Part shown: positions 10,182-19,106 of the stretch, piece after piece
How positions within the stretch are numbered: position 1 is the stretch's first letter
Layout: each line of letters begins with the position of its first letter
From: Halorubrum tebenquichense DSM 14210
GTDB taxonomy: Archaea; Halobacteriota; Halobacteria; Halobacteriales; Haloferacaceae
Assembly: GCF_000337415.1 (NCBI RefSeq)
Contig: NZ_AOJD01000053.1
Location: 1-47,768 of the forward strand
Length of the DNA stretch: 47,768 nt
Direction of reading: 5' to 3'
Position numbers and translations under genes: made by a program
Notes under the pieces: model-generated
Told to the model about the DNA's origin: nothing
What the model saw: the letters and a program-made list of their open reading frames with translations, nothing else
Database searches by the model: none

Positions 10182-11510
10182 CTACGCCGCGTTACCGAAG
10201 GTCTCCCGCTCGGAGTCGAACCGGTCGTCGAACCGGAGACACGAGATGTGGTGGTCGTCGCTCACCCCGTACGTGCCCGGCTCGTGCGTCGAGCAGGGCG
10301 TGGTGAACGCGTCGTCCAGGGTCGTCGCCGCCGCCGACAGCTGCTCGTCGGCGAGCAGGTCGATCGCCTCCGAGACCGCGGCCTCCGCGTCGTCGTCGGA
10401 GAGCCGATCCGGGAGGTCGAACTCGGTGCGGACCATCCGGCCGAGCTCCTCGCGCGACGCGTCCGTCGGGTCGAGCCGCGACCCCTCGGTGTCGCTCTCG
10501 AGCTCCGCCGTCACCGACCCGACCGAGTCCGCCTCCCGGGTCCGGAGCTTCAGGTCCATGACCGACCGCCACGCCTCCTGCGAGAGGTCGTAGTCGGCGT
10601 CGCGGATCACCTTCGGACACCGGGTGTGGAACCGGCAGCCGGAGGGGGGGTCGAGCGGGGACGGAACGGTCCCGGACAGGAAGATCTGCTCGCCCTCCCA
10701 CAGCGGGTCCGGCTCGGGGATCGCCGAGAGGAGCGCCTCCGAGTACGGGTGGTAGGGCGGTTCGAACACCTCCTCCGTCGGCGCGATCTCCGCGATCTCG
10801 CCGAGGTACATCACCGCGATCCGGTCGGAGATGTGCTCGACGACGCTGAGGTCGTGCGCGATGAACACGTACGAGAGGCCGAACTCCTCTTGTAGGTTCT
10901 CCATGAGGTTGAGGATCTGCGCCTGAACGCTCACGTCGAGCGCGGACACCGGCTCGTCGCAGACGATCACCTCTGGGTCGACGGCGAGCGCGCGGGCGAT
11001 CCCGATCCGCTGGCGCTGGCCCCCGGAGAACTCGTGCGGGTAGCGGTTCGCGTGGCTCGGGTTCAGGCCGACGGTCTCCAGCAGCTCGTAGATCCGTTCC
11101 TGCCGCTCCTCGCCGCTCGCGATGTCGTGAATGTCGAGCGGCTCACCGATGATGTCGCCGACCGTCAGCCGGGGGTTCAGACTGGAGAACGGGTCCTGGA
11201 AGATGTACTGGACGTCTTTCCGGAGGTTGCGGAGGTCGGAGCTGGACAGCTCCGTGATGTCCTCGCCCTTGTAGTAGACGGAGCCGCCCGTCGGTTCGAC
11301 CAGACGGAGCATGCTCCGGCCGAGCGTCGTCTTCCCGCACCCGGACTCGCCGACGACGCCGAGCGTCTCGCCCTCGTGGAGTTCGAGGTCGACGCCGTCG
11401 ACCGCCTTCACCCACTGCGACCGGCCGAGGAGCTTGTCGACGAACCCGCCGGTCGAGTCGTAGTACTTCTCTAACCCCTCGACGCGGAGGATCGGTTCGG
11501 CGCTACTCAT
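10182..11510 (-). CDS. dppF: Oligopeptide ABC transporter ATPase, DppF type (operon 1)
   Basis: A 442-residue cytoplasmic ATPase, last gene of the minus-strand transporter operon. Walker A (GESGCGKTT, 54-62), Q-loop (QDP, 105-107), signature FSGGQRQR (161-168), Walker B with DEP (185-187) and switch His219 are all present. The C-terminal oligo_HPY motif starts with Cys292 and Cys298, but the next cysteines are at 406 and 424: about 107 helical residues are inserted where related proteins have about six. The ATG at 11510 overlaps the end of the DppD gene by eight bases. It pairs with DppD to power import; peptides are the likely substrate from family membership. Confidence 0.93.
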
Positions 11511-12579
11511 CGCGATCACCCTCGACGTACCCCGCGGCCGCGCCGTCCGCCGACCCGGTCGTCTCGACGGAGTACGTGAGTCCCTGCGAGAGCCCCTCCG
11601 TGTACTCGAGACAGGCCGCGGCGTGTTCCGTGTCGAGCGTCGCCTCCGCTCCCGACTCCACGTCGGTGAGCGGCGGCTCCTTGCGCGTACACTTCTCCTC
11701 GGCGAACGGACAGCGCGGGTGGAAGCTACATCCGGAGGGAAGCTCGACGAGGTCGGGCATCACGCCCGGGATCGTCTGGAGCCGCTCCCGCTTGTCGTTG
11801 ACGCGGGGGATCGAGCTCATGAGCCCGACCGTGTACGGGTGTTTCGGGTCGTAGTACAGCTCCTCGACGGGAGCCTTCTCGACGGGTTTCCCGGCGTACA
11901 TCACCATGACGCGGTCGCACACCTCGGCGATGACGCCGAGGTCGTGGGTGATGAGCTGGATCGCCGTGTCGAACTCGTCGGCCAGCTCCCTGAGCTCGTC
12001 CAAGATCTGCGCCTCGATGGTCACGTCGAGCGCGGTCGTCGGCTCGTCCGCGACGATCAGGTCGGGGTCACACGACAGGGCCATCGCGATGATCGCCCGC
12101 TGTTGCATCCCGCCGGAGAACTCGTGCGGGTAGTCGGAGAACCGCTCTTCGGCCTCCGGGATGCCGACGCGGTCGAGCAGCTGGATCGTTCGCGCCTTCG
12201 CCTCCTCGGACGAGTAGTCGAGGTGGTGTTCGATCGCCTCCGCGATCTGGCCGCCCACCGTGTACACCGGGTTGAGCGCCGTCTGCGCGTCCTGGAAGAT
12301 CATCGAGATCTCGTCGCCGCGGATCGAGCGGATCTCCGACTCGGACATCTCCAGTAGGTTCTCGCCTTTGAACAGGATCTCGCCGCTCTCGATCTGGCCC
12401 GGACTGTCGATCAGCCGCAGCACGGAGAGCGCCGTGACGCTTTTGCCCGCGCCGCTCTCGCCGACCACGCCGAACTTCTCGCCGCGCTCGATGCGGTACG
12501 AGAGGTCGTCGACGGCGGTCACCACGCCCTCCTGAGTGTAGAAACGGACGGTGAGGTCCTTCACTTCCAGCAGCGCCAT
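11503..12579 (-). CDS. dppD: Oligopeptide ABC transporter ATPase, DppD type (operon 1)
   Basis: A 358-residue ATPase with Walker A GESGAGKS (40-47), signature [10 protein letters not shown], Walker [13 protein letters not shown] and switch His in THD. The C-terminal oligo_HPY region has normal cysteine spacing ([14 protein letters not shown], later AACLEY), which in bacterial DppD-type proteins can hold a [4Fe-4S] cluster. Its ATG shares one base with the stop of the upstream permease (TGATG). It forms the nucleotide-binding heterodimer with DppF below it in the operon. Confidence 0.93.
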
Positions 12580-13631
12580 CAGTCCTCACCCCCGCGGCCG
12601 ACACCCGTCTGCTGTGCGTCCAGTGCGTCGTTGATACCGTCGCCGATCATGTTCATTGACATCACGAAGATGAAGATCGCCCCACCGGGGTACACGGTCG
12701 CCCACCAGGGGATCTGACCGCCCGGCCCCTGAATGAGCGTCGACCGCGTGGCGTTCAGCATGGTGCCCCACTCGGCCGAACTGGGGTCTAACCCGAGTCC
12801 GAGGAAGCCGAGCGCGGCGACGCCGATGACGACGCTCCCGATGTTGAGCGACGCCAGCACGATGAGCGGCGGCATCGCGTTGGGAGCGATGTGTCTGAAG
12901 ACGACCGAACGGTCGCGCGCGCCGAGCGCCTTCGCCGCCATCACGTACTCGTTTTCCTTGATCTTCAGCACTTCCCCTCTCACCAGGCGGCCGTACCCGG
13001 CCCAGCCGAAGAGGCTGAACGCCAAGACGAGCTGCCAGTAGCCGCCGCCGAGGATGGCGACGATGATGAGCGCCAGGATGAGCCCGGGGAACGCGAAGAT
13101 GGTGTCGACGATCCGCATCATCAGCTCGTCGACGTTGCCGCCGTAGTAGCCCGAGATGGAGCCGTAGATCAGGCCGAACGACGCCGTGAGTCCGACGACG
13201 ATGAAGCCGATCGAGAGGCTGTACCGGCCGCCGACGAGGAGCCGCGAGAACAGGTCGCGGCCGGAGCCGTCGACGCCCATCGGGTACTGCCACGAGGGCG
13301 GGTCGTACACCTCGACGCTCGGGTCGACGCCGAGATACAGGATCGTCGTCGGGTCGTACGGGGCCAGCGAGAACGGCTGGACGACGACGCCGAACACCTC
13401 GATGGGACGCGCGAACAGCGCCGCCAACGACATCAGAACGACGATGACGAGCGCGCCCATCGCGGAGCGGTTCCGCTTGAACTTCCGGAGGCCGCGCCGC
13501 CAGCGACCGACGGTCTCGCCGCTCGATTCGTCGGTCCAGTCGGACATCGGTTCTCTGTCTCTGACGCGGTCCGAATCGAATCCCGAGATGCGGATCCGGC
13601 CGCGTTCGTCGTGAGTTTGTCGGTCAGTCAT
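12579..13631 (-). CDS. dppC: Oligopeptide ABC transporter permease, DppC type (operon 1)
   Basis: A 350-residue inner-membrane permease. A hydrophilic N-terminus (about 55 residues) precedes the first helix (about 59-78), an extracellular loop, and five further helices. The ATPase-coupling EAA loop is visible as YVMAAKALGARDRSVVFRHIAPN. The C-terminus has the usual GDGINDALD. The ATG at 13631 overlaps the dppB stop by eight bases (ATGACTGA), and a second ATG lies 28 codons in. Operon position and overlaps indicate coordinated translation with dppB and dppD. Confidence 0.92.
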   Translation of the reverse strand: MTDRQTHDERGRIRISGFDSDRVRDREPMSDWTDESSGETVGRWRRGLRKFKRNRSAMGALVIVVLMSLAALFARPIEVFGVVVQPFSLAPYDPTTILYLGVDPSVEVYDPPSWQYPMGVDGSGRDLFSRLLVGGRYSLSIGFIVVGLTASFGLIYGSISGYYGGNVDELMMRIVDTIFAFPGLILALIIVAILGGGYWQLVLAFSLFGWAGYGRLVRGEVLKIKENEYVMAAKALGARDRSVVFRHIAPNAMPPLIVLASLNIGSVVIGVAALGFLGLGLDPSSAEWGTMLNATRSTLIQGPGGQIPWWATVYPGGAIFIFVMSMNMIGDGINDALDAQQTGVGRGGED

Positions 13632-14580
13632 ATCGGATCCTCGGGTCGAGCGCCGCGTACACGATGTCGGCGACGAGGTTCGCGAGAATGACGAAGAACC
13701 CGGTGAACAGGGTGATCGCCATGACGACGTTGATCTCTCGCTGATTGATGGCGTCGATGAACTCCCGTCCGAGCCCCGGCCAGTTGAACACGACCTCCAC
13801 GACGACCGAGCCGGCCACGATAGAGGCCGTGAGCGTCGCCGCGAGCGTGACGACCGAGATCAGGGAGTTCCGCAGCACGTGTTTGAGTATCACCGTGCGC
13901 TCGGGGAGCCCCTTCGCGCGCGCGGCGGTGACGTACTCCTTGTTCAGTTCCTCCGTCATCGACGTCCGCATCACGCGCATGATGCTCGCCGCCGAGGCGG
14001 TCCCGATGGTGATCCCCGGGAGGATGAGATACCGCAGCATCTCCGGGGAGATGAGCGACGATCTCGACGGCGCTAACACCGGGAAGAGACCCAGATACAG
14101 CGAGAATATCAGGATCAACATCAGGCCGAGCCAGAAGTTCGGGATCGAGATCCCGGACAGCGCGAGGAAGCGGCTGACGGTGTCGCCGAGCTGGTCCTTG
14201 TTGACCGCCGCGTAGACCCCCGCCGGGATGGCGATGATGAGCGCGAACGCCCAGCCGAAGAGACCGAGCGCGACGGTCTCGGGGAGCCGGGTCCACACGA
14301 TGTCGGAGACCTCGCGCCCCGTCTGGAGCTCCTGGCCGAAGTCGCCGACGAGCACGTTCGAGATCCAGTCCAGGTACTGCTCCCAGACGGGACCCGAGAG
14401 TCCCCAGCGTTCGCGGAGCGCGGCCTCTTCGGCCGCCGTCACGTCCGGGTTCAATGCGACGAGTTGGGTGACCGGGTCGCCGGGAGTCAGGTGGAACATC
14501 CCGAAGGTGATCACCGACACCCCGAACATGATCGGGATTATTGATAGCGTTCGCTTCAGTATGAAACGTTGGAGGCTCAT
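13624..14580 (-). CDS. dppB: Oligopeptide ABC transporter permease, DppB type (operon 1)
   Basis: A 318-residue permease of the DppB/OppB family with six predicted helices, an N-terminal helix (about 10-28) followed by HLTPGDPVTQL, the EAA-type coupling loop EYVTAARAKGLPERTVILKHVLRN, and the family C-terminus VYAALDPRIRYD. It forms the membrane channel with DppC. It lies 85 bp downstream of the substrate-binding protein gene, the only sizeable gap in the operon. Confidence 0.93.
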   Translation of the reverse strand: MSLQRFILKRTLSIIPIMFGVSVITFGMFHLTPGDPVTQLVALNPDVTAAEEAALRERWGLSGPVWEQYLDWISNVLVGDFGQELQTGREVSDIVWTRLPETVALGLFGWAFALIIAIPAGVYAAVNKDQLGDTVSRFLALSGISIPNFWLGLMLILIFSLYLGLFPVLAPSRSSLISPEMLRYLILPGITIGTASAASIMRVMRTSMTEELNKEYVTAARAKGLPERTVILKHVLRNSLISVVTLAATLTASIVAGSVVVEVVFNWPGLGREFIDAINQREINVVMAITLFTGFFVILANLVADIVYAALDPRIRYD

Positions 14581-14665: not shown

Positions 14666-16639
14666 TCAGTTGTCCGCGGCGACCTGTTCAAGCAGCTCTT
14701 CGGCGCGCTCGACGCTGTACTCGTTCATCGGTCGGAGCTCCTCCTCCAGAGCCTCGGCGTCGGCGGTCCCGCTCCCCTGCGCCAGCTGCGGGATCGGGGT
14801 CCAGGCCGGTCGGCCGTAGCCGCTGAACACGTTCTCGACGATCCGCTCGCGGGGGATCAGGTGGTTGATCGCCTGCCGGAGCCGGGCGTCGTCGAACGGG
14901 GCGACGTTGACCGGGTACTGGATGTACTCGTAGCCGCCCGTCTCGACGCTGTAGACCAGGAACTCCTCCGAGGAGTCGAAGTCGTCGAGCGTCGACGTGT
15001 TGATCCCGTACGTGGAGTCGATCTCGCCGTTCTGAAGCGCACCGGACCGGGTGGAGTCGTCGGGGACGATCTCGACCTCGAACCCGTCGAGGACCGGCCC
15101 GTCGGGGAAGTCGCTGGAGCCGTCGAACCAGCTGAACGCCTCGCTGACGCCCTTCTGTTCGGTCCAGTAGTTGTCGAACTTCGTGACCTCGTAGTACTGG
15201 GCGTCCTCGAACTCGGAGAACTCGTAGGGGCCCGTCCCGATCGGGGTGTTACCCTCGCGCGGGTCGATGTTGCCCTTCTCGACCTCCTCGATCTGCGTGG
15301 CGTTGAGGATGAGCGGCGAGGGGAGCTCGCGTTCGGCCTCGGCGTCGGCGACCTGCGCGTACAGGTCGACCGTGTACTCGTCCACCTGGACCGCGGCCAG
15401 CAGCGAGTCGAACGTCTGTGCGGAGATGTCCGAGTTCTCGACGTACTCGAAGGTCGCGACCACGTCCTCCGCGGTGAGCTCGTCGCCGTTGTGGAACTCG
15501 ACGCCTTCCTGGAGGTTGTACCGGTACTGCATCCCGTAGGTGCCGTCCTCGATCGCCTCGGTGGCGTCGTCGGGGAGCAGGACGCGGACCTCGTCGTCCT
15601 CGGCGGGGTTGTCATCCGGGTGCGGGACGACGACCTGCTCGTCCGTGTCTGTCGCGCCCTCCTCGGTGGTGCCGACCGTCGACATGTAGTCCGCGTACGC
15701 GGTCCGGTCGATGTCGTTCGTGTCGCGCAGTTCGTAGCTCTCGGCGAGCCACGGGTAGACGTTACCCTGCGCGTCGTTTACCGTCAGCCCCTCGAAGATG
15801 AACCCCTGCGCCAGCGTCGAGGTCGTGTCGGTGCTGTGCGGGGGGTCGAACGACTCGATGTTCGCGCCCACCGCGAGCGACAGCGTGCCGCCCTCGGAGA
15901 GGTCCGAGAGGTCGGAGTCGCCCGCGGTGTTCTCGCGGTCGACCCACATGATCTGCTCGTCCTGCGGCGCGAACATGTTGTAGCTGTACATCCCCTCCTG
16001 GAACGGCCACATCTCGAACCCGTGGAGGTCCGTGTTCGAGACCGAGGTGGCGAGGTTGAAGTGGGTGATCGAGCTGTACCGGTTGTCCGCGAGGTAGTTC
16101 CAGACCTCGTCGTACCGCTCTCCGCGGAGTTCGGCGTCCGCGGCGACGTCGACGCCGTACCGCGCGGAGTCCATCAGGTCGTCCAGCTCGGAGTCGTTGA
16201 TCCCGTTGAGGTTACAACACTGGCCGACGTTGTCGGAGTGGTGGAGCGCGTTACAGAAGCTTCCGGGGTTGAACGTCCCGGAGAGGCCGATACACGGGAC
16301 GTACCCGTTGTTCTGGTATTCGGGGTCGAGGACGCGGCCGACGTACGTGTTCCACTCGTACGTCTCGACGGTCGTGTTGAAGTAGCCGGTCTGCTCCATC
16401 GACTCGGCGATGAGCTCGACCATCTGAAGCCGGTCGCTGTTGTCGGCGTTGACTTCGAGCTGAACGTCGAGGGGGAAGAGCTCTCCGTCGCCGCCGTCCC
16501 CGCCATCGCCACCGTCGCCGCCGTCGGATTGGCCGCCACACCCGGCCAGGCTGGCTGCGCCGGCCGCCCCGATGGTGGCGATAACGTTACGTCGATTTAT
16601 GTTTTGTTTGGAATCGGATGCGTTGTGCCGACTTGGCAT
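14666..16639 (-). CDS. dppA: Circularly permuted oligopeptide-binding lipoprotein (SBP_bac_5 family, operon 1)
   Basis: A 657-residue extracellular solute-binding protein. It has a Tat signal (Arg16-Arg17) and lipobox LAGC with Cys34, then a Gly/Asp linker to about residue 52. Residues 54-215 correspond to the C-terminal third of normal DppA: LDVQLEVNADNSDRLQMVEL, then TVETYEWNTYVGRV (like TYEWGEYL in E. coli DppA), NPGSFCNALHHSDN and LHGFEMWPF. After a linker (216-250), residues 251-657 are the normal N-terminal two thirds: GTLSLAVGANIESFDPPHST, LQEGVEFHNGDELTAEDV, GTGPYEFSEF, RLRQAINHLI, ending at ERAEELLEQVAADN. In standard proteins that end runs straight into the segment found here at residue 54, so the fold looks complete but circularly permuted. 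Four cysteines (116, 129, 141, 142) fall near the disulfide region of DppA. The ATG is 26 nt from a TATA box. Confidence 0.9.
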   Translation of the reverse strand: MPSRHNASDSKQNINRRNVIATIGAAGAASLAGCGGQSDGGDGGDGGDGGDGELFPLDVQLEVNADNSDRLQMVELIAESMEQTGYFNTTVETYEWNTYVGRVLDPEYQNNGYVPCIGLSGTFNPGSFCNALHHSDNVGQCCNLNGINDSELDDLMDSARYGVDVAADAELRGERYDEVWNYLADNRYSSITHFNLATSVSNTDLHGFEMWPFQEGMYSYNMFAPQDEQIMWVDRENTAGDSDLSDLSEGGTLSLAVGANIESFDPPHSTDTTSTLAQGFIFEGLTVNDAQGNVYPWLAESYELRDTNDIDRTAYADYMSTVGTTEEGATDTDEQVVVPHPDDNPAEDDEVRVLLPDDATEAIEDGTYGMQYRYNLQEGVEFHNGDELTAEDVVATFEYVENSDISAQTFDSLLAAVQVDEYTVDLYAQVADAEAERELPSPLILNATQIEEVEKGNIDPREGNTPIGTGPYEFSEFEDAQYYEVTKFDNYWTEQKGVSEAFSWFDGSSDFPDGPVLDGFEVEIVPDDSTRSGALQNGEIDSTYGINTSTLDDFDSSEEFLVYSVETGGYEYIQYPVNVAPFDDARLRQAINHLIPRERIVENVFSGYGRPAWTPIPQLAQGSGTADAEALEEELRPMNEYSVERAEELLEQVAADN

Positions 16640-17174: not shown

Positions 17175-17177
17175 ATG
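17145..17177 (+). promoter_or_regulatory. dppA2 promoter with nested inverted repeats over the start codon
   Basis: A T-rich TATA-like element (17145-17152) lies about 27 nt before the ATG at 17175. Between them are GTATG (17151-17155), CATACC (17162-17167) and GGTATG (17172-17177). The middle element can pair with either the left or the right one, and the right arm contains the ATG. This could be a repressor operator or a start-codon hairpin. Confidence 0.5.
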
Positions 17178-19106
17178 TCACGCCGAGGCATGAATGATAG
17201 TGACGATTCCCCACACGTCGGTCGGCGGCAATGGCTCTCCGCGCTCGGTCTCGCCGGGGCGGTAACGCTCGCGGGCTGTTCCGGCGACGGCGGCGGCGGC
17301 GGCGGCGGCGACGGCAACAGTTCGAACGGCGGCGGTTCGAGCGGTGATCTCGGTCAGGAGGAGGTGTACGCGACGGCCGCGGCGGCCTCTTTCTCGACGC
17401 TCAATCCGATATATAACAGCGAGGATGGAGCTGGGGACGCGATCGCTCGCGCCCTCGATCTGGGCTACGTGTTCGACGAGAACAACGAGTACGTCCCGCT
17501 CCTCTACGACATGTCCACCGAGGACGGCGAGGTGTGGACCTTCGACGTCCGCGAGGGACTCGAGTTCAGCGACCCGTACGGCGAGGTGACCGCGAGCGAC
17601 TTCGTCTATCTCATTCAGGAGATACACCAGAGCAGTTGGGCGAGTTCGGTGAATTCGACGAACTGGACCGGCGTCGAGGTCGAAGAGACGGGCGAGTACG
17701 AGTTCCAGGCCACGCTTGAGACGCCGCAGCTCCTCTGGCCCGAGAGCTTCGATCCGCTGCTGTACCCGATCCCGCAGGAGCTGCTCGAACCGTACGTCGA
17801 GGAGGAAGACACCGAGGGGCTCCGGCAGGACGAGGAGCTGCTCGAACTCCAGTTCTCGGGGAATCTCGGCCCGTACGTCCTCGACGAGTGGCAGCGGGAC
17901 GGCGGGACCCGGTACAGCCGCAACGACGACTACTACCTCCGGGACGCGGACGACCTCCCGGACGCGTTCAACGAGGCCCCGTACTTCGAGGCCGCGGAGG
18001 TCCAAGTGATCGGCGAGCAGGCCTCGCGGCTCGGTGCGTTAGAGACCGGGGAGGTCGACTCGGCGGCGATCCCGCCGAACCAGGTCGAGTCGTACCGGAA
18101 CAACGACGAGATCTACGTCAACCGGATCCCGCAGCCGTACAACGAGAAGATCTCGGTCAACATGCGGGACAACGGGTGGACGACCGGCCCGGGGAACATG
18201 TTCCGACACGTCCCGTTCCGGCAGGCGATGGCCGCCGCCATCGACAAGGAGGGGCTGATCGAGGGCGTGTTCCGCGACTTCGCCCAGACGCACTTCACCT
18301 GGCAGCCGCGGTTCAGTAACTTCTACCCGCCGGAGGAGGACATTCCGCAGTTCGGCGTCGGCGACAGCTACGGGAGCGAGGTGGCCCGCGGGCTGGCCGA
18401 GGACGCGTTCGCGGAGTCCGAGTACGACTACCGGTTCGACGGCGAGACGATGGTCGACCCCGACGGGAATCAGGTCCAGCTCAGCCTCTACCACAGCGCC
18501 GGGCAGAACACCGAGCAGCTGATGGCGGACTTCATCGCCCAGGAGCTCGGCGACAACCTCGGCATGGACGTGACCGTCGAGGCCATCGACGGGACTCGGT
18601 TCAACAACGAGTACTGGCAGCAGACCGACTACCCCACTCCCGAGACGAACGAGGAGGGCGAGGTCACCAACGTGCCGGACGAGCTCGTCGACACGGTGAA
18701 CGGCGAGGAGGTGGAGTGGACCCAGCCCACCGCGACCAACCCCGGCCCGCGCAACGTCACGTCCAACCAGGAGTGGGACATGTCGGTCGTGTTCGGCCTG
18801 AACACGTACCCGCGGAACCCGCTCACCAATAACGTCTTCTTCGAGGGCGCGAACCCGCTGTACAACCCTGTCGGCTACTACCCCGGGTTCGACGCCGAGC
18901 AGCTGTTCCAGAGCGCGCGAGAGGCGACCACGCAAGAGGAGCTGGCCGACGCGCTCATCGAGCTGTTCGCCAACCTCGCCGAGGAGCAGCCGTACATCAT
19001 GCTCGCGTTCCCCGACGACACGGTCGGCTACCGCGAGGGACTCGAAGGGCCCATCGAGAACTTCTCCAACGGCTGGGACCTGGCCGCTTGGAGATACGGG
19101 GAGTAG
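17175..19106 (+). CDS. dppA: Oligopeptide-binding lipoprotein, normal domain order (operon 2)
   Basis: A 643-residue extracellular solute-binding protein of the SBP_bac_5 family. It has a twin-arginine signal (Arg17-Arg18), lipobox LAGC with Cys35 and a Gly-rich linker (35-60). The domains follow the standard order: ASFSTLNPIYNSEDGA at the start, TFDVREGLEFSD, LGPYVLDEWQRDGGTRY, FRQAMAAAIDKEGLI, and the C-terminal segment QLMADFIAQELGDNLGMDVTV. It is longer than bacterial DppA because of acidic inserts. The ATG at 17175 lies in a GGTATG inverted repeat; an ATG five codons later would also keep the signal peptide. It heads the plus-strand operon; the ligand is probably a peptide but cannot be read. 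Confidence 0.92.
   Translation: MSRRGMNDSDDSPHVGRRQWLSALGLAGAVTLAGCSGDGGGGGGGDGNSSNGGGSSGDLGQEEVYATAAAASFSTLNPIYNSEDGAGDAIARALDLGYVFDENNEYVPLLYDMSTEDGEVWTFDVREGLEFSDPYGEVTASDFVYLIQEIHQSSWASSVNSTNWTGVEVEETGEYEFQATLETPQLLWPESFDPLLYPIPQELLEPYVEEEDTEGLRQDEELLELQFSGNLGPYVLDEWQRDGGTRYSRNDDYYLRDADDLPDAFNEAPYFEAAEVQVIGEQASRLGALETGEVDSAAIPPNQVESYRNNDEIYVNRIPQPYNEKISVNMRDNGWTTGPGNMFRHVPFRQAMAAAIDKEGLIEGVFRDFAQTHFTWQPRFSNFYPPEEDIPQFGVGDSYGSEVARGLAEDAFAESEYDYRFDGETMVDPDGNQVQLSLYHSAGQNTEQLMADFIAQELGDNLGMDVTVEAIDGTRFNNEYWQQTDYPTPETNEEGEVTNVPDELVDTVNGEEVEWTQPTATNPGPRNVTSNQEWDMSVVFGLNTYPRNPLTNNVFFEGANPLYNPVGYYPGFDAEQLFQSAREATTQEELADALIELFANLAEEQPYIMLAFPDDTVGYREGLEGPIENFSNGWDLAAWRYGE

Follow-up and report, generated by a model that had tools for sequence, protein, structure and literature searches.

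Organization of the locus

The window analyzed here, the whole stretch of 47,768 nucleotides from Halorubrum tebenquichense DSM 14210, carries a gene for a solute-binding lipoprotein, the genes of an ABC importer behind it, and a second binding-protein gene belonging to a neighboring operon. The features are:

14666..16639, minus strand: SBP_bac_5 lipoprotein of 657 aa, very probably circularly permuted (reading frame, profile and structure-chain matches)
16538..16639, minus strand: putative signal peptide carrying a twin-arginine pair (R16 R17) and a probable lipobox cysteine (C34), from conservation, the lipobox by eye
16481..16537, minus strand: Asp/Gly-rich tether, residues 35-53, differing in length among relatives
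15932..16480, minus strand: residues 54-236, the ancestral C-terminal part, first in the present chain
15893..15931, minus strand: residues 237-249, linker from the old C-terminus to the old N-terminus
14669..15892, minus strand: residues 250-657, the N-terminal part of the ancestral chain, now in last place, with its end after ERAEELLEQV (a presumed helix)
13624..14580, minus strand: permease B (BPD_transp_1)
12579..13631, minus strand: permease C (BPD_transp_1, OppC_N)
11503..12579, minus strand: ATPase D (ABC_tran, oligo_HPY)
10182..11519, minus strand: ATPase F (ABC_tran, oligo_HPY)
17175..19106, plus strand: SBP_bac_5 protein of the neighboring operon, in normal order, divergently transcribed

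The binding-protein gene is a single frame of 657 aa without interruption, as the initial annotation had stated, and it lies on the minus strand, which corrects the strand given there. R16, R17 and C34 are invariant in 17 aligned proteins, and the Pfam TAT_signal profile reaches 14 bits, under its cut-off of 22.7. The full B-C-D-F set expected behind the gene is present at 10182-14580 on the same strand, so that two oligopeptide-type permeases and two ATPases adjoin the binding-protein gene, the arrangement of DppBCDF/OppBCDF-type systems.

The two parts of the protein match the family in swapped order

The initial annotation had proposed that the C-terminal third of a DppA/OppA-type protein, placed at residues 54-215, now precedes the N-terminal two thirds, placed at residues 251-657, and that the profile coordinates of the two parts should be swapped. 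The SBP_bac_5 profile (PF00496) matched the whole protein with 209 bits (cut-off 32.4), and its coordinates were indeed swapped: positions 291-340 corresponded to residues 60-109, a match that is weak alone (15.8 bits, under the cut-off, with E 0.0078), and positions 5-275 corresponded to residues 297-652 (E 5e-57). Because positions 291-340 precede positions 5-275, the collinear order of the profile is absent, and the protein is a rotated relative of SBP_bac_5 and not a standard member. The identity of the first part stood, with its end moved to about residue 236, since residues 237-249 are the linker; the second part was borne out as residues 250-657 by profile matches, chain matches and alignment.

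Solved structures gave the same order. In 3m8u, chain positions 351-457 aligned with residues 58-173 (20 bits) and positions 61-340 with residues 368-653 (51 bits). In 1xoc (AppA), positions 69-316 aligned with residues 359-620 (61 bits), and weaker stretches placed residues 39-213 at 347-507 (14 bits) and residues 248-303 at 19-74 (3.5 bits); together these pieces, two of the three weak, span chain positions 19-316 and 347-507 with no overlap. The swapped segments jointly cover one parent chain with no duplication. All solved SBP_bac_5 chains that were aligned in detail (three, three and two chains) have the normal order, and none among the best 60 of 75 and the best 60 of 90 solved chains had a best stretch spanning both permuted parts. 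A fold-wide HMM built from normal-order proteins also reads the window protein as permuted. The 11 NCBIfam families among the matches listed were all far under their cut-offs, and AlphaFold2, run on an alignment of 17 permuted sequences including the window protein, gave a poor model (mean pLDDT 43.7, pTM 0.32).

The known members of the family, DppA, OppA, AppA, NikA and HbpA, resemble the window protein in the sequence of both parts, in having two permeases and two ATPases encoded in the operon, and in secretion as a lipoprotein, which is predicted for the window protein, but DppA/OppA-type proteins have the normal order, whereas the window protein is rotated.

Position of the cut and of the new junction

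Locus L024 of Halalkalicoccus paucihalophilus encodes a normal-order relative that reads ERAGELLDEVGEDLGLEYPLEVTLETNADN through the region opened in the permuted forms. At this region the window protein ends after the helix with ERAEELLEQVAADN, followed by the stop codon, and its first sequence past the tether is FPLDVQLEVNADN. The old C-terminus, which in L024 is MWLERE followed by a stop, runs on in the window protein as MWVDRENTAGDSDLSDLSEGGTL into the old N-terminus. Junctions, linker and ends align residue by residue. The cut of the permuted members is confined to one short stretch, within a few residues, their linkers are mostly similar (like PxxTDLSDLQEGGTL), and several share tails of the form GYxSxV. 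In the L024 group of normal forms, the N-terminal linker and the junction resemble those of normal outgroups.

These alignments suggest that the permutation opened the ancestral chain at the boundary of a helix (ERAEELLEEV) and the next strand (FPLDVQLE), both assigned by comparison with the family. A linker of about 13 residues would have bridged the former C-terminus (WxDRE) and the former N-terminus (EGGTL), and a signal peptide with its lipid-anchor cysteine would have been placed ahead of the new start.

The permuted order recurs in independent genomes

A scan of named genomes yielded 17 loci, 16 of them permuted across both parts, the sole normal-order locus being L024, so that chance does not account for the order. 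This answered the initial annotation's call for a search of haloarchaeal genomes, as did a sample of 391 such genomes, drawn by the tool, rich in relatives of the window and overlapping the named set: 93 genomes had a match with E of 1e-40 or lower, of which 36 gave a single permuted-order alignment across both parts. Many of the remaining matches were two adjacent pieces in normal order. Among the distinct sequences of the window's family that were fetched, 47 of 83 had the permuted order. Viral contigs, when scanned, yielded no relatives.

Unpermuted orthologues of the window protein are close to it, up to 65% identical in the N part and 69% in the C part, and they sit ahead of the same transporter genes as the permuted forms. 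For L024 the figures are 65% and 63%, respectively, and identity between permuted and unpermuted orthologues ranges from 64.5% (window protein and L024) to 73.4% (L045 and L065).

Compared with five permuted relatives, the window gene had dN/dS of 0.19-0.31 over the mature protein, which speaks against a pseudogene. The C part gave 0.16-0.27 and the N part 0.18-0.35; the linker, with few sites, gave 0.3-1.2.

The draft state of the window's assembly (93 contigs) leaves room for an artefact of assembly or annotation in which two tandem binding-protein genes were collapsed into one, an explanation that the initial annotation had itself named as fatal to its proposal. A misassembly would, however, have to recur in 36 genomes. 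The permuted order is present in one- or two-contig assemblies such as G206, G038 and G006, independent assemblies agree (16 of 17 named loci and 36 of 391 genomes, sets that overlap), and dN/dS is well below 1. We therefore reject this explanation, which is scarcely credible.

Relationship of permuted and normal forms within the family

For the family trees, the two parts were set in a common order before alignment; the careful tree has 41 rows. Normal-order L065 paired with permuted L045 both in the tree of the N part (support 98/94) and in that of the C part (99/92), a pairing to be expected where both halves come from one parent. This bears on the possibility that the gene is a chimera of two unrelated binding proteins, one contributing its last third and the other, fused behind it, its first two thirds. 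Rotation and fusion of close paralogues are indistinguishable in a single protein, and the part-trees do differ in places, the normal group L067-L069 being placed among permuted forms by the N-part tree alone. Against this stand the two well-supported L045-L065 pairings and the nearly equal closeness of both parts of the window protein to the same unpermuted orthologue, L024, and a chimera is very improbable. Circular permutation, the interpretation of the initial annotation, is supported as the reading that best accounts for the gene, and from the comparisons made here we consider its product very likely to be a genuine circular permutant of an SBP_bac_5 solute-binding lipoprotein of the oligopeptide/nickel type.

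The permuted forms of the window's family are not one clade. The 41-row tree has three label changes, a single permuted clade occurred in 0 of 200 bootstrap trees, and such a clade was rejected by the AU test (p 2.8e-5), as was a grouping of the permuted forms plus L065 (p 0.0011). The tree of permeases and ATPases likewise pairs normal L065 with a permuted locus, L107 (support 100/98), which is another locus of the genome carrying L045. When identity was followed along L065 in 10 windows against 12 rows, no clear mosaic was seen: L045 was the closest row in 6 of the 10 windows, and at most 3 points off in the other 4. This lack of monophyly, despite similar cuts and linkers, does not fit one clean event.

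Two histories could produce this pattern, and each seems to us somewhat unlikely. The chain may have been permuted several times independently, each time at almost the same position, a history consistent with the tree, with the concordant pairing in the transporter tree, with the outgroup-like linker and junction retained by the L024 group, and with the separate origins supported between families (see below). The cut shared within a few residues, together with mostly similar linkers and several common tails, argues the other way. Alternatively, the chain may have been permuted once and then have reverted to normal order in L065 and perhaps the L055/L024 group. The three changes in the tree would be accounted for by one gain and two losses; moreover, the junction of L065 and L055/L105 is shortened and carries FP, as permuted starts do, and the N-terminal DLSGIQEGGTL of L055 resembles the permuted linker. 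However, the junctions and linkers of L024, L059 and L062 are like those of outgroup normal forms, so that reversion there would have had to recreate ancestral sequence. Recombination between the two orders may also have taken place, alongside parallel origin and reversion.

Two further rotated families

A search of the phylum uncovered a second family of distant relatives (28-38%) in the permuted order. Its cut lies about 17 residues earlier, before the same helix and not after it, and its linker is short; this position was read in all 19 members fetched, each of which is followed by matches to B, C, D and F. Single alignments of this family across both parts were found in 33 of 381 haloarchaeal genomes. 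In one further genome, G164 (contig C5, 154975-156586), a permuted protein of this family is split over two frames, possibly by a recent frameshift.

In a tree that included nine normal relatives, seven of them from the window's own family, the window's family and the second family were separated by a branch with 100/100 support, and each held normal and permuted members. Forcing all permuted forms together cost 576 log units (p 6e-4), and a single origin of the second family was not rejected (p 0.35).

The third family is that of the protein at 17175-19106, whose orthologue in Halorubrum coriense (L009 5635-7530, minus strand) is permuted. The window's genus was represented by 52 genomes, and 34 of them have a member of this family, 19 in the permuted and 15 in the normal order. 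The 19 permuted members share one cut, each with a short linker, and they fit a single origin (support 73/75; 72% of bootstrap trees). In a close relative, G006, the binding-protein gene of the neighboring operon contains an in-frame stop (contig C1, 410258-411856). In all three closely read families, then, the cut is found just before or just after what sequence comparison indicates to be the same helix.

Distribution in haloarchaea, other archaea and bacteria

The SBP_bac_5 profile was run over 24 haloarchaeal genomes drawn by the tool, 7 of them from the window's genus and including the window's own genome. The 133 rows obtained comprise 105 proteins or stretches and two unpaired fragments. 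By order, 65 stretches were normal, 2 were normal in two pieces, 24 were swapped (in 14 genomes) and 14 ended early; eight of the early-ending stretches were examined with the fold-wide HMM built from normal proteins and all eight were permuted, and another two belong to the window's family. Of 59 SBP_bac_5 proteins in eight genomes, picked partly as known carriers, 18 were permuted. Since sampling was not random, the counts of swapped proteins are not frequencies.

Outside the haloarchaea, 28 archaea of the same phylum gave 146 rows (about 142 proteins), two of them swapped (L208 and L209) and confirmed by the HMM. L208 (3233-4996, minus strand) has a C-terminal PGF-CTERM motif just above its cut-off, and its anchor may thus sit at the other new end. 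A plasmid search with permuted L188 returned 152 records, 35 covered over at least 80%, and the 40 matches listed include single alignments across both parts in Alphaproteobacteria. The fold HMM confirmed three permuted cases on plasmids of Alphaproteobacteria (L227, L228 and L230) and one on a haloarchaeal plasmid. Two of the bacterial proteins are annotated as "ABC transporter substrate-binding protein", and annotated ABC permease and ATP-binding genes follow both. A plasmid search with L208 was uninformative on order, since most of the 40 matches listed (of 2783 records) cover the N part only.

Export by the Tat pathway was considered as a reason why rotation is tolerated. This idea is weakened, because the signal peptides of L227 and L230 look Sec-type by eye; that of L228 looks Tat-like.

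A tree of 82 representatives, made by a quick method and with long branches and composition warnings, showed 12 changes of order, at least 6 of them forced by well-supported branches, and one clade of all permuted SBP_bac_5 forms was rejected. Rotation of the same type has thus arisen more than once in SBP_bac_5 proteins.

An all-against-all search for swapped order among 156 records gave five components. The first mirrors the main set in antisense, the second holds the binding proteins of the first and second families, and the third holds those of the third family. The other two, a fused two-ATPase protein and a protein that we take to be TrkA-like, proved on reading to be internal-repeat matches and were set aside.

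Transporter genes and likely function

The permuted chain is expected to fold into a single ordinary binding protein and to deliver its ligand to the B-C-D-F importer; the rotation would attach the membrane tether to a different part of the fold. In most loci of the window's family with room for them, B, C and D lie behind the binding-protein gene at much the same distances in either order, with at least one of the three undetected by comparison in some loci (e.g., L061, L075, L077, L078, L097, L104).

It could be argued that the chain folds but has stopped feeding an importer, serving for example as a receptor or persisting as a remnant, and several permuted genes would suit such a role: L187, L189, L190, L193 (both), L194, L195, L197 and L198 had no permease or ATPase detected downstream on the same strand within the 4.6-8.4 kb covered. 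For the window gene this is improbable, however, as B, C, D and F are retained behind it, relatives of either order mostly keep their transporter genes too, and the gene is under purifying selection.

The genome from which the window comes has a second permuted SBP_bac_5 protein, L187 itself (contig C45, 5399-7402, a 668-codon frame), which together with the loci just named forms a set of similar orphans with no permease or ATPase detected downstream.

Discussion

Importer binding at this locus would be carried out by a protein whose parts have been rotated, and the initial annotation had proposed that this came about by tandem duplication followed by loss of the outer ends. That route, which follows from general knowledge of permutation, is plausible for the window gene. 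A related genome does contain a fused tandem pair: L207 (1114-5859, minus strand) is one frame of 1582 codons encoding two complete SBP_bac_5 proteins, the second copy by eye lacking a signal peptide of its own. L207 is another SBP_bac_5 protein and not the ancestor of the window gene, and it indicates that the duplicated state required by the usual model does occur. Remnants of the lost outer ends, in contrast, were not found by similarity search of the window flanks, where the sole significant match, between the N part and the second binding protein at 17175-19106 (E 5e-7), is expected homology.

Circularly permuted binding proteins have been engineered as sensors; these share the idea of moved termini, but are man-made and derive from other binding proteins. 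Among natural proteins, the glycine betaine-binding proteins, a different and smaller class of solute-binding proteins, offer a parallel, a rotation within solute-binding proteins as in the window protein. According to the published account, circular permutation occurs among glycine betaine-binding ABC-type proteins (2B4L, 1R9L, 1SW1), which have less than 24% pairwise identity and whose permutation was detected by structure (PMC2395249). Natural permutation of binding proteins as such is thus already known. The haloarchaeal case differs in that permuted and unpermuted orthologues are 64.5-73.4% identical, share the same operon position and include several independent cases. For SBP_bac_5, no description of circular permutation was found in one library of open-access papers, and the initial annotation knew of no example in the family.

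A broader reading, which we offer tentatively as one possibility, is that SBP_bac_5 proteins have been permuted many times on either side of one surface helix, with switching in both directions in some operons, so that rotation would be an easy and possibly adaptive means of re-siting the tether. Within it, the recurrence is well supported; two-way switching and an adaptive reason are not yet so. The window protein is one of many rotations in SBP_bac_5, and such repeated rotation in a superfamily constitutes a natural experiment on how much protein order matters. One practical consequence is that the profile libraries tried score permuted proteins mainly by one part. For the biology of the family, our results suggest that an ABC binding protein can have its lipid tether moved to another part of the fold, and the presence of permuted and unpermuted orthologues at the same operon position, down to a single genus, makes the route, cost and consequence of natural permutation directly testable.
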